Source: Tubulanus polymorphus (Eukaryota > Nemertea > Palaeonemertea > Tubulaniformes > Tubulanidae). From it: a stretch of DNA of 64,000 nt. Below, in pieces: positions 3,735 to 61,285 of this stretch. Made by a program: the position numbers and the translations under genes. The notes beneath the pieces are model-generated. The model was not told the DNA's origin. It was given only the letters and a program-made list of their open reading frames with translations, and made no database searches. The DNA is taken from positions 17,874,650 to 17,938,649 of the forward strand of contig NC_134026.1 in NCBI RefSeq assembly GCF_964204645.1, given 5' to 3'. Positions within the stretch are counted from its first letter, which is position 1. Each line of letters starts with the position of its first letter.

Positions 3735-15033
<11,299 letters not shown>

Positions 15034-17609: not shown

Positions 17610-19800
17610 CAACTCATCAATTTAAGGCATGAAGTTTTATTTCTATTTATACCAGTTTTAATGCAGACCTGTCACCTCAGGTCCCGAGAAGCTCTGAGGT
17701 CTGAGGTCTTACTTCATAATTATTGTTTCATAGTAACTTAAGATTAACTATATCCATGGTTAGCAATCTATATTATATTCATTACTATAAAGATACCATA
17801 AAAAGTGAAGTTTTTTCCATTTCATCAGTTTTTATGCAGGCCTGTCACCTCAGGTCTCGAGAAGCTCTGCAAAATGGCGCGAGCTGCCGTGTGAGGTCTC
17901 GCTTCATAATTATTGTTTTATAGTAACTTAAGATTAACTCTATCTATGGTTGGCATTTTGTATTATACTCTTTACTATAAAGAGACCATAAAAATTAAAG
18001 TTTTCCTTCATTTCATCAGTTTTAATGCAGACCTGTCACCACAGGTCCCGAGAAGCTCTGCAAAATGGCGCGAGCTGCCTTGTGAGGTCTCGCTTCAAAA
18101 TTTTTGTTTTATAGTAACTTAAGATTAACTCTATCTATGGTTAGCAATTTATATTACACTCATTACTATAAAGAGACCAAAAAACAAAGTTTTCCTTCAT
18201 TTCACCAGTTTTAATGCAGACCTGTCACCACAGGTCCCGAGAAGCTCTGCAAAATGGCGCGCGTTGCCGTGTGAGGTCACGCTTCAAAATTATTGTTTTA
18301 TAGTAACTTAAGATTACCTATATCTATGGTTAGCAATTTATATTATATTCATTACTATAAAGATACCATAAAAAGTAAAGTTTTTTCCATTTCATCAGTT
18401 TTAAGGCAGACCTGTCTCCTCAGGTCTCGAGAAGCTCTGCAAAATGGCGCGAGCTGCCGTGTGAGGTCTCGCTTCAAAATTATTGTTTTATAGTAACTTA
18501 AGATTAACTCTATCTATGGTTAGCATTTTATATTATACTCTTTACTATAAAGAGAGCATAAAAATTAAAGATTTCCTTCATTTCATCAGTTTTAATGCAG
18601 ACCTGTCACCACAGGTCCCGAGAAGCTCTACAAAATGGCGCGCGTTGCCGTGTGAGGTCTCGCTTCAAAATTATTGTTTTATATTAACTTAAGATTAACT
18701 CTATCTATGGTTAGCAATTTATATTATACTTATTACTATATAAAGGTTATCAAAAGTAAAGTTTTTTCCATTTCATCAGTTTTAGTGCAGACCTGTTACC
18801 ACAGGTCCCGAGAAGCTCTACAAAATGGCGCGAGCTGCCGTGTGAGGTCTCGCTTCAAAATTATTGTTTTATAGTAACTTAAGATTACCTATATCCATGG
18901 TTAGCAATTTATATTATATTCATTACTATAAAGATACCATAAAAAGTAAAGTTTTTTCCATTTCATCAGTTTTAGTGCAGACCTGTCACCTCAGGTCTCG
19001 AGAAGCTCTGCAAAATGGCGCGAGCTGCCGTGTGAGGTCTCGCTTCAAAATTATTGTTTTATATTAACTTAAGATTAACTCTATCTATGGTTAGCATTTT
19101 ATATTATACTCTTTACTATAAAGAGAGCATAAAAATTAAAGATTTCCTTCATTTCATCAGTTTTAATGCAGACCTGTCACCACAGGTCCCGAGAAGCTCT
19201 GCAAAATGGCGCGCGTTGCCGTGTGAGGTCTCGCTTCAAAATTATTGTTTTATAGTAACTTAAGATTAACTCTATCTATGGTTGGCATTTTATATTATAC
19301 TCTTTACTATAAAGAGACCATAAAAATTAAAGTTTTCCTTCATTTCATCAGTTTTAATGCAGACCTGTCACCACAGGTCGCGAGAAGCTCTGCAAAATGG
19401 CGCGCGTTGCCGTGTGAGGTCTCGCTTCAAAATTATTGTTTTATGGTAACTTAAGATTAACTCTATCTATGGTTAGCAATTTATATTATACTTATTACTA
19501 TATAAAGGTTATAAAGAGTAAAGTTTTTTCCATTTCATCAGTTTTAGTGCAGACCTGTCACCTCAGGTCCCGAGAAGCTCTGCAAAATGGCGCGAGCTGC
19601 CGTGTGAGGTCTCGCTTCAAAATTATTGTTTTATAGCAACTTAAGATTAATTCTATCCATGCTTAGCAATTTATATTATATTCTTTACTATAAAGAGACC
19701 TTAGAAATTAAAGTTTTGCCTCATTTCATCAGTTTTAATGCAGACCTGTCACCTCAGGTCCCGAAGCTCTGCAAAATGGCGCGCATTGCCGTGTGAGGCC
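17610..19800 (+). repeat. 190-bp satellite array, about 11 monomers
   Basis: Successive copies of TAACTTAAGATTAAC occur near 17727, 17917, 18107, 18297, 18487, 18678, 18868, 19058, 19249, 19440 and 19630, a period of 190-191 bp. Every monomer carries GACCTGTCACCTCAGGTC (inverted hexamers GACCTG/CAGGTC), then CAAAATGGCGCGAGCTGCCG. Three monomer types can be told apart by the block after CTATAAAG (ATACCAT; AGACCAT or AGAGCAT; GTTATCA-type). The order is roughly A-B-B-A-B-C-A-B-B-C-B, so some blocks spread as multimers. The first and last copies are partial. Open frames of 66-69 codons repeat because the monomer repeats; they are not genes. Confidence 0.95.
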
Positions 19801-20366
19801 TCACTAATTAATCAGTGTTATGTCTAATTTATCTATGTCAACTTATAAGCTTGGACTGAAATGTTTTTAAATTGTATGTACACTTGGTTAATTTATTATG
19901 TTGCGAGTAATTAATAATAATATGTAATAATATAGGGCCTAATCTTAATGAGTATAATGATTGTTATTAATACTGATTATGATTACATAAGGCACTACTA
20001 GTATCATTGCCTGATCTTGATATTTTCATGTTTCGTGTTACAAAAAAATAAATCAATTGTAAACAATTCGTTCAATGTTCTCCAATAATTCACAATCATT
20101 CCATCTTTATTATTATAAGGCGATATAGTTCAACAACTTTTTATAAACGGACAAACATAAATTCTTAAATGAATTCATAACACATCATAGTTTGTTTTTT
20201 TGTTTTTGAATAATATATTCAGAAAGCACTACGATATGTTCTTTGTGTTCTTATCGGCTATCATTTGTTCTAAATCCGCGCCTATCATATCTTCTAATCG
20301 CCTATCATCGGTTCAGTCATAACGATTTTCATTTTAGCGAATCGACCTGTCACCTGAGGTCCCACG

Positions 20367-20632: not shown

Positions 20633-20820
20633 TATAGACTTAAGGTACTCGATATCAACTCCTCAGTCCTCGGTCCCGTAATTCAATCAAATTTTATTTG
20701 GCAGGTTAAATTATTGCCGACCCGGCATTATTGCGCTGTTAACTCTATCTTACCGGTTGCAGGTTCTGATTGGTGAATCCGCGCCATGCATGCACACAGG
20801 TGTGGAAAATTCGTACCGAC

Positions 20821-20996
20821 CCGTACGGATTACTCCGGAAGCTATTCGTACGGACCCGTACGGATTACTCCGGAAGCTATTCGTACGGACCCGTAGGGAT
20901 TACTCCGGAAGCTATTCGTACGGACCCGTACGGATTACTCCGGAGGCTATTCGTACGGACCCGTACGGATTACTCCGGAAGTTATTCGTACGGACC
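20821..20996 (+). repeat. 35-bp tandem repeat, 5 copies
   Basis: The unit begins CCGTACGGATTACTCCGGAA and ends TATTCGTACGGAC; five copies fill 176 bp with a few substitutions. One and a half copies occur in opposite orientation at 23127-23176. The array therefore marks both sides of the fold-back structure. Confidence 0.95.
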
Positions 20997-21404
20997 TGTT
21001 CAATTTCAATTTATTCATGTTTATTCATCATAAATCAAAGAGTACGATTGTGAATGAAGGAAAAAACAATACAAATTCCGTATTATTCGTATGGTATATG
21101 CTATTCGTATGGACTACTCCGAAAGCTATTCGTCGTAGACATAGAACTATTCAGAACAACGTGACGTAGAACAGACAGCCTTAATATTATGAATATTATA
21201 CATATGAATTACATTATTTTCAGTTATTCTAATTCTATTCTGACGGACCTCGCTACACGTGAAGAGAATGTCCGTACGGATAACACATAATTCTATCGAA
21301 GTGGATATTTTGCCAATGCGGCATTATTTTAGTAAACGCTATTCCACCAATGGCTATATATAATAAGATATATAATAATAGAATATAACAATATCATCAT
21401 TATA

Positions 21405-21512
21405 TTGGGTGTAGGGTTAGGGTTTCGATAGGGTTAGGGTCAAGAGGGTCCAGAGGCTTAGGTTTAGGGTTGGAGTCCGTTTTTACCCCTAGGGATAGGG
21501 TTAGGGTAAGGT
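21405..21512 (+). repeat. Telomere-like TTAGGG-rich segment
   Basis: Several GGGTTAGGG and TTTAGGG words occur in a degenerate run. The reverse-complement counterpart (CCCTAAACC, CCTAACCC words) is at 23455-23572. The words are too irregular for a recent telomeric insertion. Confidence 0.75.
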
Positions 21513-21687
21513 GAGGCTATATGTAGTGAAGAATTACGGGTGGTTTTGAGTGAGCCCGGTGGCCCGGAGTCGCGCACCTCTGTGCGCATGCGCGGCGTCA
21601 ATTAGCCAATCAAAACGCACCATTGGCAAAATAGCGTTAACAGGAATAATGCCGCATTGGCAAAATATCCACTGCCAGAAATGCCTA

Positions 21688-22275
21688 ATTCTATTCTGAC
21701 GGACCTCGCTACACGTAAATAGAATGTCCGTACGGATAACACATAATTCTATTCTGACGGACCTCGCTACGTGAAGAGAATGTCCGTACGGATAACACAT
21801 AATTCTATTCTGACCGACCTCGCTACACGTAAATAGAATGTCCGTACGGATAACACATAATTCTATTCTGACGGACCTCGCTACGTAAATAGAATGTCTG
21901 TACGGATAACACATAATTCTATTCTGACCGACCTCGCTACACGTAAATAGAATGTCCGTACGGATAACACATAATTCTATTCTGACGGACCTCACTACAC
22001 GTAAATAGAATGTCCGTACGGATAACACATAATTCTATTCTGACGGACCTCGCTACACGTAAATAGAATGTCCGTACGGATAACACATAATTCTATTCTG
22101 ACGGACCTCGCTACGTAAATAGAATATCCGTACAGATAACACAATTCTATTCTGACGGACCTCGCTACGTAAATAGAATGTCTGTACAGATAACACATAA
22201 TTCTATTCTGACGGACCTCGCTACGTGAAGAGAATGTCCGTACGGATAACACATAATTCTATTCTGACGGACCGC
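21688..22275 (+). repeat. 56-58-bp tandem repeat, about 10 copies
   Basis: The unit contains AATTCTATTCTGACGGACCT, then CGCTACACGTAAATAGAATG and TCCGTACGGATAACACAT. Shorter units lack two bases (CTACGTAAAT versus CTACACGTAAAT). An isolated unit lies at 21235-21290. A 164-codon minus-strand frame across the array is a by-product of the repeat. Confidence 0.95.
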
Positions 22276-22559
22276 GATCAGATTGACAATGTCCTCCGTA
22301 GTACGGATCCTTTTTTAAGATAGCAACATTTTTGTGTTTAAATGCAGGTTTTTTATTATAAAGTATCACAAATGAAATAAATCAACAAAAATTTCTACTA
22401 TTTACAATGATTTATACAACAGCACCAAAGAAATGATTAAAACTACTTAACATGAATAACAATTATTTTTTTCAAGTTTAAAATAGAACATTTTGTATAG
22501 CATATACAATAATCAATTTGGGCAGCACCAACTAAATACGTTCGAAAATCTATGCGGTT

Positions 22560-23100
22560 ATAGTACTTAATAATACAATCAATAAAATCAATTAATACAT
22601 TTACAAAAAAGAATAAAATAGAACAGTAGCATACACATTAATCACACAATCAGTAGGGAGCATTGCACCTTAAAAATCAATTAATTAATACAATTACAAA
22701 AAAGAATAAAATAGAACAGTAGCATACACATTAATCACACAATCAGTAGGGAGCATTGCACCTTAAAAATCAATTAATTAATACAATTACAAAAAAGAAT
22801 AAAATAGAACAGTAGCATACACATTAATCACACAATCAGTAGGGAGCATTGCACCTTAGAAAATCAATTAATTAATACAAATACAAAAAGGAATAAAATA
22901 GAACAGTAGCATACACATTAATCACACAATCAGTAGGGAGCATTGCACCTTAAAAATCAATTAATACAATTACAAAAAAGAATAAAATAGAACAGTAGCA
23001 TATACATTAATCACACAATCAGTAGGGAGCATTGCACCTTAGAAATCAATTAATACAATTACAAAAAAAGAATAAAATAGAACAGTAGCATATACAATAA
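22560..23100 (+). repeat. 93-bp tandem repeat, about 5 copies
   Basis: The word CAGTAGGGAGCATTGCACC recurs at about 22651, 22744, 22837, 22931 and 23020. Units differ by very few bases, which indicates recent expansion. Confidence 0.95.
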
Positions 23101-23352
23101 TCAGATGGCGCGGTAGTCTGTCAGTTCTGTACGAATAGCCTCCGGAGTAATCCGTACAGGTCCGTACGAATAGCCACTTTGTTCAAAGAAACTCAGTGGA
23201 TATTTTACCACATATGGCAGAGTGTTTATTTCCGCCATTTTACCGTACATCATCGTTGATTGGCTGATTTATGCTGCGCATGCGCACTGACTAAGGTGCG
23301 CGACTTAGAAAATTCAAGGAAAGTGTGGATAACAGTTAAATTGAGCGGATTG

Positions 23353-23420
23353 AGCGAGACTCGAATCCGGGCCATTAAGTTACTAGCGCAGCGTCGTACC
23401 ACTAGACCACCAAGCTCGCT
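23353..23420 (-). repeat. tRNA-like sequence (Glu/Gly-type A box), SINE head or pseudogene
   Basis: Read on the minus strand it starts AGCGAG and ends CTCGCT, which pair as an acceptor-like stem. TGGTGGTCTAGTGGTA matches the A box of tRNA-Glu/Gly, and GGATTCGAGTC resembles a B box. The T stem does not pair well and no good anticodon arm is visible, so this is not a working tRNA gene. It lies in the right arm of the fold-back structure and is deleted from the left arm. A similar tRNA-like block (TGGGCTAGTGGG A box) is on the minus strand at about 23735-23810. Confidence 0.65.
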
Positions 23421-23454
23421 GAAAACCAACCGAATGTTTTAACTAGATATAGAC

Positions 23455-23572
23455 CTGACCTCACCTTAATCCTATCCCTAGGGGGTAAAACGAACCCTAA
23501 ACCTAACCTAATCCTAACCCACTGGGTCCATTAAACCCTAAACCCATCAGAACCCTAACCCTAAACACAATA
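23455..23572 (-). repeat. Telomere-like segment, inverse of 21405-21512
   Basis: Words such as CCCTAAACCTAACC and CCCTAACCCTAAAC mirror the left-arm segment. It ends at the same CCTATCCCTAGGG junction. Confidence 0.75.
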
Positions 23573-24246
23573 AAATGATTTTATTGTTACTTTTATTTTT
23601 ATTAGTTAATACTATAATATAAAGTAATGATGTACAGTAAAATAGCGGAAGTAAACACTGCGGCATACGGTTAAATATCCACTTCGAAGAAAGAAATTGG
23701 AGAACAGAGTTGGAGAGAGCGAATAGAGCAGTATTATCCGAACCTGGTTCGCAGCCAGGCCAGCATATTGCTAGCATAGTGTCTTCCCACTAGCCCACTG
23801 AGACAACCTACAATTTTCAAACTGGAATTGCAAAAAAACTTGAGAAATTAAACAAGCCTTTATTATTATCTGTGAGCCCTCCCTATTCCGATAATAGCTT
23901 TCAGTAAGATTGGAGCAATTTGAATTTTCTATGGATTTATAAGATGATGTTGTTATTATTTTTTTCAGTATATCCTATTAGGGCCTATATGTATAGAGGT
24001 CAGCAAAATAGTGTTAACTGGGATAATGCTACATCAGCAAAATATACATTTCGATTTTATTTTGACTGAACGGCCAATGACAATGGGGCAGATTGATGTC
24101 CTGAACCATCTGCTCATGTGTTATTCAAAAATTATTTTTCATTGGGCTTTGAGGCCTTTTTATAATATAGCTTATCATTGAGTAGTATTTTGCTTTAAAC
24201 CCTCAAATCAAAAGAATGTTAATTTTCCAGACTAAATAACTGACTC

Positions 24247-41613: not shown

Positions 41614-44600
41614 TTAATCCTTATAGGAATACAGCTTCGGGTGCGTACCGGTACTCCAATGTCTGTCAAGCCTGACCTTAAGGCTGGCTTATGTCGACAA
41701 GCAACGCGACGCCTACCGACGCAACTGGGTTTATCGCCGATTAGCGGCAACTAGCGGCCTACGAGAGGCCGCCAGTTGCTCCTCAATCGGTTCGACATAA
41801 GCCGGCTTGTGACGGCAACGCGACGCCTACCGACTTGTCGCAAGCCGTATCCGGCTAGTTGCCCATGTTCTACTTCGGCCTACGGTAGGCGGGCAGTTGC
41901 TTTCGATCGTAGCCGACATAAGCTCATCTGCGACGCGACGGAACTGAGCGCAGGGGCCCAGCCAATGAGAGACCGCATATACATAGTACAAATTATCACC
42001 ACTAGTTAGCGTCATTCGTAATTAGTCATAAACTTTCAAATTCAAGTAGTTCAAAACGTACACCAAACCTTCAGCACGGCAGAGGACTGGACCTGAGATC
42101 TAGAAGCGAAATTGGTAGAATTATGGTGTGAGCGGCCATCTTTATAGATGTCGCTAGCACGTTGTATTCAAAACAGAATTAGAAAGATCAAAGTCTTAAA
42201 GAAATGGCTTTTCTAATAGAAATATATTTCGTAATCATTCAAATTTATTCTCAAAATGCTTATCACGTGACCATTTGAGCCGTTGCAGTTGCTAGTAATC
42301 GCAACCGACATAAGCAGAGAAGCAACTGGGAGGATCTCGTATACCGCTAGTCGGCCTCAGTTGCTGCGAATCGGAGCGCAGTCGACATAAGCTGGGCTGC
42401 GATCGCGGTTGCTCTCAGTTGCGTCGGTAGGAGTCGGTAGGCGTCGCGTTGCTTGTCGACATAAGCCAGCCTTAAAGCAATCCACCGACGGCGCACTAAA
42501 AACGGTAGCGAATTCCAGATCTGGATCGTTCGAATGCTAAAAAAGTATTTTCTACAGTTTAATTTTGCTCGTGACAGAAACAATTTAAATGGATGACCGC
42601 GAGTTCTAGTGGACAGTACCCTGGGTAGAAAGTTTGGTGGGGAGGGACATATACCATGTACATATTTGTACGTGTTGATTGCATCACCCCTCATTCTTCT
42701 ATAGACCAGGGTTGGAAGTTTAAGTTGTTTTAGGCGCTGTTCATAGGATAAATTCTGTAATCGGGGAACCATCCTAGTCACTCTCCTTTGGACTGCCTCA
42801 ATAGCGTCAATATCCTTTTGATACTGCAAGGCCCATACTACATTAGCATACTCTAATATCGGTCGAATTAGGGCCTTATACAGAGGTATCAGTGTATCCT
42901 CTTCTAGATAGACGTATGTGTTTTTAATAGCTGATAATGTTCTGTATGCTTTGTTCACTACATTTCGAACTTGTGATTCAAATATCAGTTTATTGTCGAC
43001 GTCTACTCCTAAGTCTCTCTCACACTTGATTTCCTCCAATGGTAAGCGGTTTCCCTCAGCATCGTTCATGTGGTACCTAAAATCCGGTGGGTTTCTACCT
43101 ATTCTCGTTACTTTGCATTTAGCCGTTTGAAATCCCAGTTGCCATTTCTCAGACCATTCTGTCATTCTGTCAGTATTTGCCTGTAAATTCTCACAGTCTT
43201 TGATTTTTTCGATGATGTTATATGCTTTAGTGTCATCTGCAAACATACCCACGCAACAATCTAACACATCTGGCAAATCATTAATATAAATAACAAATAG
43301 TATTGGACCCAAAACCGATCCTTGGGGTATGCCACTAGTGACAGCCGCTGATGATGACGATTGACCATTAATAACCACTTTTTGTTCTCTACCTGACAGA
43401 AAATCATTAACCCATAGACATACCTCGTCCGATAGCCCGTAACTATGCATCTTTTTCAAAAGTCGTTGGTGTGGGACTCGGCCAAACGCCTTTGCAAAAT
43501 CTGTATAAATGACATCTACACTTTTTCCAGAGTCTAGGGCAGTTGTCCAGTTATTTAGTGCTTCCAGCAAGTTCGTCACGCAGTTTTTTCCTTTGACAAA
43601 ACCATGCTGGTGATGACTGATCAAACCATTGATTTCTAAATGCTTCATGATATGATCTCTTATGAAGCTTTCCATTATTTTTGAGCAGATCGATGTAAGA
43701 CTAACTGGTCTGTAGTATACACCCTCGGCTCTATTTCCCTTTCCTTTGTATAATGGGGTCACGTTGGCTTCTTTCCAGTCGTTTGGTACTATACTATTAC
43801 TCAAACTCTTGCGAAATATGAGTGTTAAGGGTTCCGCTATAGCCGAAGCCACTTCCTTTAGCAGTCTTGGATGCAGGCCATCTGGTCCCATACTCTTGAA
43901 CACGTTTAAGCTTGATAGTTTTTTTTCCACTGCCTTGCTTGTAATATGAATGTGCTGAAAAGGCACCAGAATCTGTCTATTTTGCGGTCCAGGGATGATT
44001 GTCAGGTTTTCTGATGTAAACGCTTTAACAAACTGATTATTTAGCAAATCTGCTTTCTCTATTTCATTACTGACCTTAACTGATGTGCCTGGGATAAGGA
44101 GATCAGGTATAGATGACTTAGCTTTTGTTTTGGACTTGGCGTAAGCCCAAAAATCCTTCGGGTTAGTCTTAACTGATGTAGTCAATCCTTTTTCGAAGTT
44201 TCTAACTGCAACCCTGATTTCATTCCTAACCTCTGTTCTGGTTGCCTTGTACTCCATATAATTCGCTCGCGACCTATCGGCCTTGTATTTCTTAAACAGA
44301 CGATGTTTTGTCTTTACCTTGTGAATAATAGTTCTGGATAGTCACTTCGGTTTACTTTTATTATTTTGATTCGATCGTTTCGGGATATACTTTTCGCTAC
44401 ATCCATGAAGGCAATCCTTGAAAAATATCCAATTCCCGGCAATATCTAATTTTTGTATCTCATCTGTCATTTTGGCTTCTACAGGTTTTTCATTTATTGA
44501 GCTGTAGTCTGCAGAATCGTACATAAGCCTCACAGTATTAGCGCCTCTAGATGAGTTAGAAGAAAGTGGAGCATTTATTTCGAACAGAAGAACATTGTGG

Positions 44601-45275
44601 TCGCTAAGACCGATAGCTGGCAAATGGTCTATCTCCCCGATAATATTTTCGTCACTTACCAAAACTAGGTCTATGAGATTCTCTCTGTCCATACCTATAT
44701 CTTGTCGGTTCCTGTACCATCTGCTCTAGCAGATTATCCCTCATCACATCGGGGAACCTTGCTTCAATATGTGGGTGTTTATGAGTGGTTGATGTATTTG
44801 ACCAATCTATACCAGGGAAGTTGAAGTCACCCATTATAATCGTTCTCTTTCCTGATTTCATATTGCTATTTATAATCTCAAGTAGTTTCGCATCATTTTG
44901 CTCAGTACTATTAGGGCTTCTATATATACAGCCTAAACGCAGCACACCGTTTTCTGTCCTTCGATCAAACCATAGGGACTCCTGAAAATTCTGATCTACA
45001 ATACTGACAGGAATAACCGGAAATTCCTCCTTTATATACACACAAATACCCCTGCCTTCACAATCAATGTTGCTGTAAGGTATGTTATATCCATCTACCT
45101 TCAGATTTTCTGCTTGTAAGCTATATATTGAGTGTTTTGGTTTCACCTCGGTTACACAAATAATATCAGGGGCATGACGTATTGTGACAACTTTTAACTC
45201 GTTCAGTTTATTCTTTAATGAGTCCGCATTCGTATAAAGTATTTTACAATATTTTGGCCCGTTATCTACGGGCAT
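41614..45275 (-). pseudogene. CR1 ORF2: APE endonuclease and reverse transcriptase, broken
   Basis: The N-terminal endonuclease frame (45275-44652) has LYTNADSLKNKLNEL, ICVTEVKP, GRGICVYIKEE, LGCIYRSPNS and MGDFNFPGIDW. After a shift near 44695 follows LIDLVLVS and the catalytic GLSDHN. An in-frame TGA at 44342 precedes the 636-codon RT frame. That frame has GPDGLHPRLLKE, YYRPVSLTSICSKIMES, HQHGFVKGKNC, VIYTDFAKAF, SGIPQGSVLGPILFVIYIND, FADDTKAY (43232-43243) and WNSLPF. The usual AFD reads AFG. The true C-terminus (CFKVRLDRHWST, then a stop at 41614) lies beyond the inserted element at 41682-42471. Confidence 0.9.
41682..42471. mobile_element. 790-bp TTAA-flanked inverted-repeat transposon nested in CR1
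   Basis: Both ends read GGCTGGCTTATGTCGACAAG inward and stay identical for about 39 bp. TTAA flanks both sides (41678-41681 and 42472-42475). Removing one TTAA and the element restores continuity of the CR1 C-terminus, which shows the insertion direction. CGACATAAGC recurs inside in either orientation near 41802, 41912, 42308 and 42384, and CAACGCGACGCCTACCGAC recurs as well. The element has no long frame of its own. TTAA duplication points to piggyBac or Kolobok mobilisation. Confidence 0.93.
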
Positions 45276-54624: not shown

Positions 54625-55423
54625 TTATCCATCACGGAGACCGTCATCGGCCCTGGCGTAATGTTCCTCCTCATCTGGTCGCTCTTCAAATTCATTTCCT
54701 GGTAATGGAAGGCCGTGTAATTGACAAAAGTTGTGAAGTAGCATAGTAACCGCAATCACCGAACTGCATTTTTGATGGCTAAGCATAATAGCAACACATA
54801 AAAATGAGAATTATTAATAAATGAGATCATGAATTCCATTTCAAGCAATGTAATTCATCCCTGGATTTAGATTTAGAATTGAATGCGGTATCTGTTTGTT
54901 AATATCATATACCATCGATTGATACTTGTAATTTGTTGTTTTTACACAGCACAGCATGTTGCACACTTGACATTTAGCGAACTTACCACAATTGTGGCAC
55001 ACCAACCATCGCATCTTCCATCGGCCAAATGTGCATTCAATTTTGCACCTTGTTTTCTTGTGGCTGACGATGTATTTCTGCTCCCCTTCTGTCCTCGGTT
55101 GATCAAACAGTGTCATCGAGTATTTCCGCAGAGGATTTCCACTATCTCCAAGTAAGACACAGTTTTCTGAATGTACCATAATGTCTCTGAGACCGCAATT
55201 GCTCCATATGTGAGCATCATAAGTTGAACCCGGCCAACGCACCACAATATCGAGAAATTTCATTGACGCATCACAAACTCCTTGAATGTTGATGGCGTGA
55301 AAATTCTTCGGCACACGTAGATGTTCTCGTTTACAACGGGCCGTTTAATTCTAACAAATGCGAAAAATGCGCTCTCTCCAAAAATTTCGACGTAACTCGT
55401 TCACGTAGCAAAATTGCAGCCAT
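54625..55423 (-). pseudogene. HARBI1-like Harbinger transposase, internally deleted
   Basis: The minus strand starts ATGGCTGCAATT (MAAILLRERVTSKFLERAHF, the usual kind of Harbinger N-terminus) at 55423. It then jumps to VRIKRPVVNENIYV, losing the DNA-binding region and the first catalytic Asp. A one-base shift near 55303 leads to KNFHAINIQGVCDAS, VRWPGSTYDAHIW, the second catalytic box LLGDSGNPL and KTRCKIECTFGRWKMRW with the catalytic Glu. A donor-like GTAAG follows near 54985. The last exon, after a good acceptor near 54772, gives CSSVIAVTMLLHNFCQLHG and a stop at 54625. The exact exon junction is uncertain. Not functional as read. Confidence 0.88.
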
Positions 55424-55551
55424 TTTTGAAAGTGCGCGTTTGATCGAAGCAACACTGACAAAGGTTTCCACAACAATGCGATTACAATAGTGACGTCGGA
55501 TACCATAGATGATTATCGTGCACTTGACATAGGTTTTCGAAACTTGATAGT
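55424..55551. promoter_or_regulatory. Likely shared promoter gap of the Harbinger gene pair
   Basis: The 128 bp between the two divergent start codons contains GTGACGTCGG (CRE-like) near 55491. The placement is that expected of the divergent promoter in Harbinger elements; no TATA box is clear. Confidence 0.4.
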
Positions 55552-56368
55552 ATGGATTGTAAGAAAAGACGCAAGTCCAATTGGACGGAAGAAGATTTTA
55601 GTAGACCTCGTAAGCGAGAAATACAATACCTTAAAGACCGCGTTCAACAACGTGATACAAATAAACTGAAGAACGAAGTTTGGCAATGCATTACAAATCA
55701 AGTGAATGCCGCTTCAACCGAGGAAAGGACAGTTTTAGAAACGAAGAAGAAATTCGAAGATTTGAAAGCTGCAGCAAAAAAGAAAGCGAACTGGATCAAG
55801 AACTCTTCTAATCGAACTGGTGGAGGAGAACCAACGTCACTTCAGTTGACACCCGTGGAAGAGGCGATCGTGTTTATGATTGGAAGCGATGCAGTGTATG
55901 GTTTAAAAGGGTTAGATTCCAGCAACTGTACACATGAAGATCATGTCATTTTGGTAGATGCATCCGTGCCGGTTCAGGTAGCCAACGAAGGTCTTACTGT
56001 AAAGCCAACCGATCGATCTACACCGGTAAGTTCGCCAAAAGCCAGAAAAAATTTACAGTCGACAAAACAATAAAACAAACTCTGATCTTTTGTATTTGTT
56101 TCAACAGAAAACTATGAAAAGAAGTGATTGTAGCCGTGAGAAGGGATCAGGAACCGATTGTAAGGAAGTGAAGCGACCGAAAATGTCTCATAAAATTGGC
56201 GGCCAAGATGAACTTTTTGAAATCGAAAGAGAGAGACTTTCCATTGAAAAGCAATGACTAGACGTAGAGAAAGATATATTACGACAACTTGAAACTATAT
56301 CTGCAGTTCTTACGCAGCGTTACGTGGCAACTTTTGAAGAATCAGGGAAAACCTATTTCAACATCTAA
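55552..56368 (+). pseudogene. Harbinger Myb/SANT-like DNA-binding protein (NAIF1-like), one stop
   Basis: Exon 55552-56025 begins MDCKKRRKSNWTEED. It has the Myb/SANT-like fold pattern (LKNEVWQCITNQVNA, KKKFEDLKAAAKKKANWIK) and the conserved GGGEP..LTPVEEAIVFMIG and YGLKGLDSS tail seen in NAIF1 relatives. The donor is at 56026 and the acceptor at 56107; exon 2 runs 56108-56368. It encodes a basic stretch and a coiled coil (ELFEIERERLSIEKQ) broken by TGA at 56255-56257, then LDVEKDILRQLE to the final TAA. In Harbinger systems this protein binds the ends and brings the transposase to the nucleus. It is transcribed away from the transposase from a shared 130-bp gap. Confidence 0.88.
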
Positions 56369-57995: not shown

Positions 57996-58866
57996 TGCCC
58001 CCACAACGCGTTGTGGGGGGGCATACTATATTCACCTCGTCGTCCGTCCGTCTGTCCGCAGTGGTTTCCGTGCCCTAGCACCCAAACCCTTTGACAAATT
58101 TTCCTGTGCTGTACTAGATGAGGTTAGTAACTGATTAGATTTTGGATCCTGTAGGTCCAAGGTAAAGGTCACAGGAAGTCATTTTGTAAATTTCATTTCC
58201 GGGCGCAAACTCATAAACGGTTTAAGATAACTTGGTGAAATTTAATGGATGAGTTATCCTAGAGACTGGGGGTAACCGATTAGATTTTGGGTCCTGTAGG
58301 GTCAAGGTCACAGGAAGCCATTTTGGAAATTTAATTTCCGGGCTCTAACTCATAAACGATTTGAGATAACTCAGTGAAATCTATGGATGGGTTATCCCAG
58401 TGACCGTGGGTAACTGATTAGATTTTGGAACCTGTAGGTCATAGGTCAAGGTCACCAGGAGCTGTTTTGTATTTTTAATTTCCGGGCTCTAACTCATGAA
58501 CGATTTAAGATAACTTGCTGAAATTTTATGGATGGGTTACCCTAGAGACCTTCAGTGACTGCTTAGATATCGGGTCCTGTAGGTCTAAGGTCAAGGTAAC
58601 CAGAAGTTATTTTGCTATTTTCATTTCCGGTTTATAACTCATAAATGGTTTTTGATAACTTAGTGAAATTAAATTGATGGATTGTCCTAGAGCAAATAGA
58701 TTAGATGTTGGGTCCTGTAGGTCAAAGGTCAAGGTCACCAGAAGTTGTTTTGGAATTTTCATTTCCGGGCTCTAATTCATCGATTGTTTACGATTACTAT
58801 GTAAAATGATTAATGAATTAATCTTGTACTTAACTCTCAGGCGTTTCACCTGATGTGGGGGCATCA
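57996..58866. mobile_element. ATGCCCCCAC-ended element with internal about 144-bp tandem repeat
   Basis: The left end is the 26-bp palindrome GCCCCCACAACG / CGTTGTGGGGGGGC; the right end is GATGTGGGGGCAT. ATGCCCCCAC and GTGGGGGCAT are inverse. About 4.7 copies of a 137-147-bp unit fill 58120-58790, marked by CCTGTAGGTC, ATTTCCGGGC and AACTCATAAACG words. The palindrome end is of a type I associate with mollusc and other lophotrochozoan repeats. No coding region. Superfamily not identified. Confidence 0.75.
58120..58790 (+). repeat. Tandem array carrying clustered AGGTCA half-sites
   Basis: Unit starts are near 58149, 58293, 58429, 58576 and 58717 (by the CTGTAGGTC word). In two units AGGTCA occurs three times in a row with one spacer base then none (58436-58454 and 58719-58737). 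That gives a perfect DR1 plus a TCAAGGTCA monomer site; the other units carry partly mutated versions. Confidence 0.85.
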
Positions 58867-60680: not shown

Positions 60681-60893
60681 TACACGTGTATTTAGCTAAA
60701 TACACGTGTAATACACGTGTAATATGAAATTACACGTGTACTTTTGACATGTATTTTGAAGTACATGTGTAAAACACGTGTATTTCTAAAATGCACGTGT
60801 AGTTTGGACATGTATTTTGAATTACACGTGTACTGAAGATGTGTATTTTGAAATACACGTGTAACTTAGGACGTGTATTTTAAAAACACGTGT
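60681..60893. repeat. Minisatellite of ACACGTGT palindromes (E-boxes)
   Basis: TACACGTGTA occurs exactly at 60681, 60701, 60712, 60731, 60823 and 60854, with one- or two-base variants at 60762, 60774, 60793 and 60886. From 60748 on, the unit is about 31 bp (GACATGTATTTTGAAATACA then CGTGTA). Each unit can itself fold (GTGTATTT-TG-AAATACAC). Every exact copy contains the CACGTG E-box core. Confidence 0.9.
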
Positions 60894-60899
60894 AAATTC

Positions 60900-61285
60900 A
60901 TGTGTGGCTTCTGAAATACATGTGCAATCTGGATGCATGTACCTTGGCTAAAAAATTATACATGTACCTTGTTTCTCATAATTGGTCACTTTTGTAAACT
61001 GCAATAAAATTTGTAATTACATCATTTAGCTTCACATGATTTCATAAAAAGTAAGATTTTGCATGTAATGTTCGGAGAATTGAAGGAATCTCCTGTCTTT
61101 TTAATTGTTTGATCCTCATTTAGTAGCTTTTTCCAGGATGCCATGTCAAAAAATCATGTTGTTTGTCCTGTATTGACTAGATTGGATCCTGTATGAATGA
61201 AGCACATGTCTTTGTTGCCCTCTGAATAAATCCAAAAACTGTTTCACAAAAATCATGATCTGAACAAAAAATTTTGGATATTTCA
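60900..61285. other. No gene seen
   Basis: AT-rich sequence between the palindrome minisatellite and the 3' side of the minus-strand gene candidate. Confidence 0.5.

Follow-up and report, generated by a model that had tools for sequence, protein, structure and literature searches.

A probable nest of Mutator/Foldback transposons in the nemertean Tubulanus polymorphus, with a tRNA-like core that recurs between different terminal inverted repeats

Positions 20691 to 24062 of a 64,000-nucleotide stretch of the Tubulanus polymorphus genome (GCF_964204645.1, NC_134026.1, positions 17,874,650 to 17,938,649, forward strand; hereafter the window) hold three tandem arrays and two inverted arms that carry the same ordered modules, an arrangement that an earlier note on the sequence took for a single fold-back transposon. 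Our analysis indicates that the region is several transposons of the Mutator-like element (MULE) kind that landed one inside another, and not one element. The genome searched was the 268-Mb assembly of 77 contigs (labeled C2, C4, C5, etc.), with the window on contig C2; a search of this assembly for cytochrome oxidase gave no match. Four elements are distinguished: an outer element (O), a foldback-type element (C) with the arrays, and two small copies (A and B) whose terminal inverted repeats (TIRs) define the A and B types. Their parts, in window coordinates, are as follows.

20691-20699: left 9-bp target duplication of O (ATTTTATTT), exact match to 24054-24062
20700-24053, reverse strand: O, an old MULE-type element with A-like TIRs, a decayed tRNA-like head and a GC/CCAAT part; ends 73-78% to the A-type TIR; exact 9-bp duplication
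20700-20797, reverse strand: TIR and CCAAT/GC-palindrome part of O (A-type element positions 403-497), 73.5% to the A-type element
20809-23181: C, foldback-type, ending in 35-bp repeats and enclosing the 58-bp and 93-bp arrays; has lost its outermost left part; matches a complete 1500-bp relative, locus L074
20809-20996, forward strand: 35-bp tandem array, left terminal repeat of C; 5.4 copies, Tandem Repeats Finder score 348
21230-21296, forward strand: first unit of the 58-bp array, left of copy A; 97% match
21288-21296: left 9-bp target duplication of A (TAATTCTAT), exact match to 21686-21694
21297-21685, forward strand: copy A, A-type non-autonomous element; 21677-21685 are nine extra bases past the usual end
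21298-21355, forward strand: left TIR of A, 94.8% to the autonomous A-type MULE end
21405-21515, forward strand: TTAGGG-like block of A
21568-21676, forward strand: GC palindrome, CCAAT motif and right TIR of A, 91.7% to the A-type element
21686-22273, forward strand: 58-bp array within C; 10.4 copies, Tandem Repeats Finder score 998
22586-23103, forward strand: 93-bp array within C; 5.6 copies, Tandem Repeats Finder score 906
23122-23181, reverse strand: 35-bp right terminal repeat of C, 90% to the left end of L074
23183-23191: imperfect duplication of B (TCAAAGAAA), partner at 23684-23692 (TCGAAGAAA), 8/9
23192-23683, reverse strand: copy B, B-type non-autonomous element
23352-23420, reverse strand: tRNA-like head of B (A box, B box)
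23454-23567, reverse strand: TTAGGG-like block of B
23690-23802, reverse strand: decayed tRNA-like head and tail of O, 70.4% to the A-type element
23986-24053, reverse strand: right TIR of O, 74.6-78% to the A-type TIR
24054-24062: right 9-bp target duplication of O (ATTTTATTT)

Self-comparison of the window aligns the two arms in inverse orientation at 21359-21473 and 23502-23616 (115 nt, 71%), 21464-21516 and 23454-23506 (81%), and 21579-21613 and 23256-23290 (86%). All of the modules described in the earlier note are present where it placed them, in the same order in both arms (TTAGGG-like block, tRNA-like part, GTGCGCATGCGC, TIR), and repeat detection confirms the 58-bp and 93-bp arrays between the arms and the 35-bp array with its inverse remnant; the partial modules reported near 20705, 21300, 23640, and 23996 are also there and prove to be TIRs. 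Copies read out from the genome give a full repeated unit of about 490 bp, ordered as TIR, AT-rich spacer, TTAGGG-like block, tRNA-like head (A box TGGTCTAGTGG, B box GGTTCGAATCC), tail, GTGCGCATGCGC, AGCCAATCAG, and TIR. The left arm is an A-type copy on the forward strand, with a tRNA-like part about 107 bp short compared with fuller copies, and the right arm is a B-type copy on the reverse strand. Each is found elsewhere more often than expected by chance, with at least 98 genome matches for the left arm (40 of 553 candidates scored) and at least 50 for the right (40 of 502). The idea that they are two arms of one element is not upheld: they are separate insertions of two subfamilies, oppositely oriented and bounded by their own TIRs, that lie within an older element and beside or inside a third.

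One 58-bp unit stands to the left of copy A, which therefore interrupts that array; TAATTCTAT occurs on either flank, and the uninterrupted units represent the unfilled site. Nine extra bases lie between the usual right end of A and its duplication, and the 8/9 duplication of B holds if the end of B is set three bases short of the usual end. The enclosing element O has an exact 9-bp duplication, and between its ends a decayed tRNA-like head (70%) is followed, in family order, by a GC/CCAAT part; a telomere-like block was not recognized within it. Transposase is absent from A, B, and O.

Element C has inverse tandem-repeat TIRs at both ends, as expected of a foldback element, both in the window, where the 35-bp array aligns with its inverse remnant at 20945-20998 and 23122-23175 (54 nt, 91%), and in its complete 1500-bp relative (L074, 1224-2723), which has 35-bp repeats at each end and an exact 9-bp duplication (ATATTTATT). 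This relative supports reading the 35-bp array as a foldback-type terminal repeat. L074 contains the 58-bp array and the AT-rich stretch that follows it, without the 93-bp array; a piece of contig C5 (L073) has the same order as the window, namely 58-bp array, AT-rich stretch, 93-bp array, and inverse 35-bp repeat. Genome searches located the 58-bp unit on contigs C2, C4, C5, and C7 (five candidates, all scored) and the 93-bp unit on C2 and otherwise on C5 only (three candidates scored), a match on C4 being to the preceding stretch only. The junction AAAATTC/ATTCGTAC suggests that the left end of C in the window was lost by deletion at a short shared sequence. The array-element copy on C5 sits in coding-looking DNA, with similar stretches on either side (L073, 1-1980 and 2990-4501).

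Target duplications of 9 bp, as in MULEs, recur across the family. End pairs were taken from loci L001-L072, pairs without clear orientation or longer than 560 bp being dropped, which gave 37 end pairs in 36 loci (L072 gives two; A and B of the window are included). The 9-base flanks match at 68%, compared with 39% in cross-paired flanks; the mean match is 48% for 8 bases (control 37%) and 44% for 10 bases (control 36%). Exact 9-bp duplications flank 6 of the 37 end pairs (control 0.08%), and 15 have at most one mismatch over 9 bases (control 0.3%), while exact flank matches at lengths of 5-8 and 10-12 number at most one. Duplications of 9 bp were also found for O, L074, L078, L094, and the two autonomous copies described below. 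The 21-base core motif has 261 genome matches and the A-type TIR 134 (reversed controls 0 for both). The earlier proposal of a fold-back family survives in part: there is a multicopy family of the MuDR/Foldback kind whose ends are constant and which has target duplications and A and B boxes of the tRNA type, and the two arms are members of it rather than halves of one.

Autonomous elements matching the small copies were identified. With all 109 candidates scored, PF10551 has 56 genome matches, and six loci with MULE matches (L075 and L085-L089) were checked for known ends: two have an A-type TIR, two a C-type end, and two none. The A-type autonomous element on contig C5 spans 6898 bp; its TIRs agree at about 96% with those of the small elements, and it is flanked on both sides by an exact 9-bp duplication (TTATTGATA); a second autonomous A-type copy on C5, fetched at its ends only, has TTTTTTTAA on both flanks, again exact, and a copy on contig C12 is 99.5% identical across 4.46 kb. 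A 451-residue frame has ZSWIM1-3 RNaseH-like, MULE, and SWIM matches, all over their cut-offs, and is preceded by a 141-residue frame with sub-threshold FAR1-like and ZSWIM3-like matches; comparison of the transposase with solved structures returned a single weak match, to a glycoside hydrolase entry (E 0.0009), and this was set aside. C-type ends adjoin MULE domains in L075 and L085, one end each, so that TIRs in common with a MULE-transposase element are present for the A type and, with one end, for the C type. Over 178 residues, the A-type transposase piece is 44% identical to the C-type piece. When compared with L075 and L085-L091, a full A-type element matched TIRs only, and these loci therefore lack the core that is described next. 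The autonomous loci gave no Rfam tRNA match at E up to 5. A B-box-like CGGGTTCGAATCCCG (reverse strand) occurs at about 290-330 of L091, near the right TIR of the autonomous A-type element. Movement in trans by a MULE transposase, with the core as a passenger, is the likely mode of spread.

The core common to A and B consists of the telomere-like block, the tRNA-like A/B-box head, the GC palindrome, and the CCAAT motif. It is near-complete in 77 records, of which 76 loci were typed, the window being left out: 24 have B/B ends, 19 A/A, 14 C/C, and 2 D/D. Duplications of at least 8/9 were found in 36 of these 76 loci, against 4 of 76 control chimeras; seven of the 36 reflect inner TIR symmetry, and one (L014) is that of an enclosing element. 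Among the C/C copies, 10 of 14 have exact duplications and three more 8/9. A further type, F, was recognized by eye in L094 (exact duplication TTCATTTAT), L093, and L102, and L107, typed D, may by eye be another type F or a further type. L014 holds an A-type copy between other inverted ends, with the exact 9-bp flank repeat TGAAATTTG, and is possibly nested in yet another TIR element. On contig C4, three identical tRNA-pattern matches (8950703, 8958323, and 8965943) are spaced exactly 7620 bp apart, which suggests a 7.6-kb tandem repeat carrying the core.

Core consensus sequences are 96% identical between the B and C types, 89% between A and B, and 85% between A and C (157 columns). When C-type copies are compared with their nearest B-type copies, similarity stops 55-65 bp to the left and 0-4 bp to the right of the core in all 14, whereas beyond the core similarity continues to median distances of 147 and 89 bp in C-C comparisons and of 233 and 63 bp in B-B comparisons. 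The score of the inner B and C TIRs is reached by 94 of 300 shuffles and that of C and D by 204 of 300; the inner TIRs of A and B (3 of 300) and of A and F (0 of 300) are related. Similarity between A and B stops at the right core edge (median -3) and extends 196 bp leftward, and that between three D copies and B stops at -2 and 160. In a tree of the core most C and D copies fall inside B, with weak support. Because the B and C cores are 96% identical, the inner TIRs are no more alike than shuffles, and the stop is sharp in all 14 C copies, at least one change of ends by the core is probable; on these comparisons A, B, and F are probably of common descent, and C, perhaps with D, would be the same core between foreign ends.

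The chief alternative to such an exchange is that all TIR types descend from one ancestor and that the inner TIRs diverged much faster than the core, perhaps since each transposase line selects its own binding site. Types A-F do all start with a motif like RAAGTGGNTAT, the inner TIRs of A are detectably related to those of B and F, and the resemblance of the A-type and C-type transposase pieces fits a common origin; yet B and C have nearly the same core between inner TIRs that look unrelated, and their similarity ends at near-same points in every C copy where C-C and B-B similarity runs on. We consider this explanation unlikely, if worth keeping in view. That the whole region is one composite foldback transposon, with long arms at 21405-21690 and 23190-23572, agrees with the inverse arms and their common module order, but is scarcely credible given that either arm is a complete stand-alone element elsewhere in the genome, that the TIR types of the arms differ, that A splits the 58-bp array with a 9-bp duplication, and that relatives of C (L073, L074, and L076) contain array material but no A or B in that place; a single fold-back element was rejected on the solo arm copies and A's own duplication.

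The tRNA-like part could also be a free short interspersed element (SINE) that jumped into MULEs several times by itself. SINEs derived from tRNAs have a tRNA-like head with an A box and a B box, and such a head is present here, with the boxes at tRNA-like spacing; Rfam gave weak tRNA matches in L003 (29.2 bits) and L008 (23.5 bits) and reported none for the other 14 of 16 loci. The A/B-box pattern has 109 genome matches (reversed control 0), of which 100 were listed, and 20 of the first 22 listed places outside loci already collected were sampled. The telomere-like block lies upstream in 18 of the 20 (at most 2 of 14 mismatches; missing in L100 and L104), and the GC palindrome lies downstream in 18 (at most 3 of 12 mismatches; missing in L102 and L104), so that the modules are not the independent, never-associated repeats that would have spoken against the earlier proposal. 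At least 11 of the 20 lie between two TIRs with an 8/9 or 9/9 duplication, and no free copy with its own duplication outside TIRs was recognized in these 20 places, which are a sample and not a census. The core, judged by its duplications, moves between TIRs with 9-bp duplications, unlike a tRNA-derived SINE, and independent jumping of the tRNA-like part appears very improbable. A tRNA gene was ruled out, with none reported by ARAGORN in the window or in 21 loci; the window has no match to any Rfam family, tRNA included, at gathering scores. Seven other tRNA-like pattern matches on contig C5 have spacers unlike the core; six matches with such spacers at C5:24376883-24854566 may be another tRNA-like repeat or true tRNA genes.

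The joint reading that we favor, with high confidence, is a nest of four Mutator/Foldback (MULE) cut-and-paste DNA transposons, with an old core that has probably been given new ends. Several observations weigh against it. Neither a left end nor a duplication can be read for C in the window. The automatic duplication count misses A (8/9 mismatches) and B (5/9 mismatches), whose duplications were matched by hand, with nine additional bases allowed in A and a shortened end allowed in B. The searches turned up no transposase with B-type ends, nor a partner for types D, E, and F; MULE loci L086 and L087 showed no known end, and right ends were not found for the C-type MULEs or for the C12 A-type copy. 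One or both ends are unassigned or unlike in 17 of the 76 core loci, and L094 was typed A/A by script and F by eye. The right stop at the CCAAT motif also appears in the A-B (median) and D-B comparisons and is therefore not special to C, and the weak core tree requires 18 type changes (minimum possible 6; shuffled mean 42.6).

Under the favored reading O would have arrived first, C would then have inserted into O, and A and B would have followed, A into the 58-bp array of C and B into O directly beside C; A and B are left unordered relative to each other. A MULE transposase supplied from elsewhere (for the A-type TIR, by the 6.9-kb element) would excise the elements at their TIRs and reinsert them with a 9-bp target duplication. 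An old core between new ends would be explained most simply if one element served to refill a gap in another; this route, by gap filling or template switching, is inferred here by analogy with Pack-TIR work (PMC8277862). A host source copy of the core, of the kind expected for Pack-MULE or Pack-TIR filler, was not recognized.

The A and B boxes could recruit RNA polymerase III (Pol III); the GC palindrome resembles an NRF1 site, and the CCAAT motif an NF-Y site. Ranked for conservation among 11-base windows in 17 A-type copies, the A box falls in the top 21%, the B box 12%, the NRF1-like palindrome 60%, and the CCAAT motif 16%; the corresponding ranks in 33 B-type copies, which were found by a core-containing query, are 8%, 11%, 1.9%, and 0.7%. 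Apart from the high rank of the palindrome and CCAAT motif in B-type copies, which is absent from A-type copies, these ranks offer no strong indication of selection, and clear selection on the promoter motifs is unsupported. We propose only tentatively, and regard as somewhat improbable, that the core acts as a selfish cassette of promoters, which has on one strand a Pol III head of the tRNA type, along with NRF1-like and CCAAT motifs that could serve RNA polymerase II, and which persists by changing ends. If so, as one MULE system wanes the cassette would be refilled into other TIRs and ride the transposase of that system, and the unit of inheritance would be the cassette and not the TIR.

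Other repeats and transposon-like frames occur in the window. An unrelated tandem array with a unit of about 190 bp (11 copies, 90% matches) occupies 17702-19802; an array of about 145 bp (4.6 copies) at 58126-58780 includes GGTCAAAGGTCAAGGTCA, and an array of palindromic units with ACGTGTATTT / AAATACACGT is found at 60684-60924. Reverse-transcriptase frames of elements like long interspersed elements (LINEs) lie at 42347-45275 (98.3 bits, over the cut-off) and 12627-13929 (just under it, 29.2 vs 29.6 bits). At 54841-56073, a DDE_Tnp_4 frame (reverse strand) adjoins a Myb/SANT-like frame (forward strand), a pairing like that of PIF/Harbinger elements.

The nearest described systems that we found are Tm1 and Tetris, which have foldback-type TIRs, duplications of about 9 bp, and both small and large modular members. 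Tm1, a Mutator/Foldback family of root-knot nematodes, has a Phantom-like (FLYWCH) transposase, and some members carry a histone-hairpin motif; it resembles the present family in its 9-bp duplications, its composite TIRs of short tandem repeats, its MULE domain, and the presence in one genome of transposase-coding members and members like miniature inverted-repeat transposable elements, and the accessible portion of its description mentions no tRNA-like core between unrelated TIR types (PMC3169594). Tetris and DAIBAM of Drosophila virilis likewise present a modular foldback element with internal tandem repeats, 8-10 bp duplications, and TIR ends in common with a small element; no autonomous partner was found for Tetris, and in that system it is the ends that are common, whereas in the present family different ends enclose a common core (PMC4079207). 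Pack-TIR and Pack-MULE elements are TIR transposons with foreign filler for which template switching is a refilling route; the filler here differs in being non-coding, in having hundreds of copies, and in that no host source was found for it (PMC8277862). In a search of titles and abstracts in the open-licence literature, no paper was found that joins a small MULE element with a tRNA-like head. What is added here is the presence in one genome of partner MULEs for two TIR types, and of a core between TIRs that look unrelated.

The usual view of small non-autonomous transposons is that they are leftovers, bound to one transposase through their ends. In T. polymorphus the inside is common to different ends, with sharp junctions, and the genome also has near-identical autonomous partners; the family thus makes it possible to test whether non-autonomous elements switch from one transposase to another, and whether transposons spread promoter motifs of the tRNA type, along with telomere-like DNA, across a genome.

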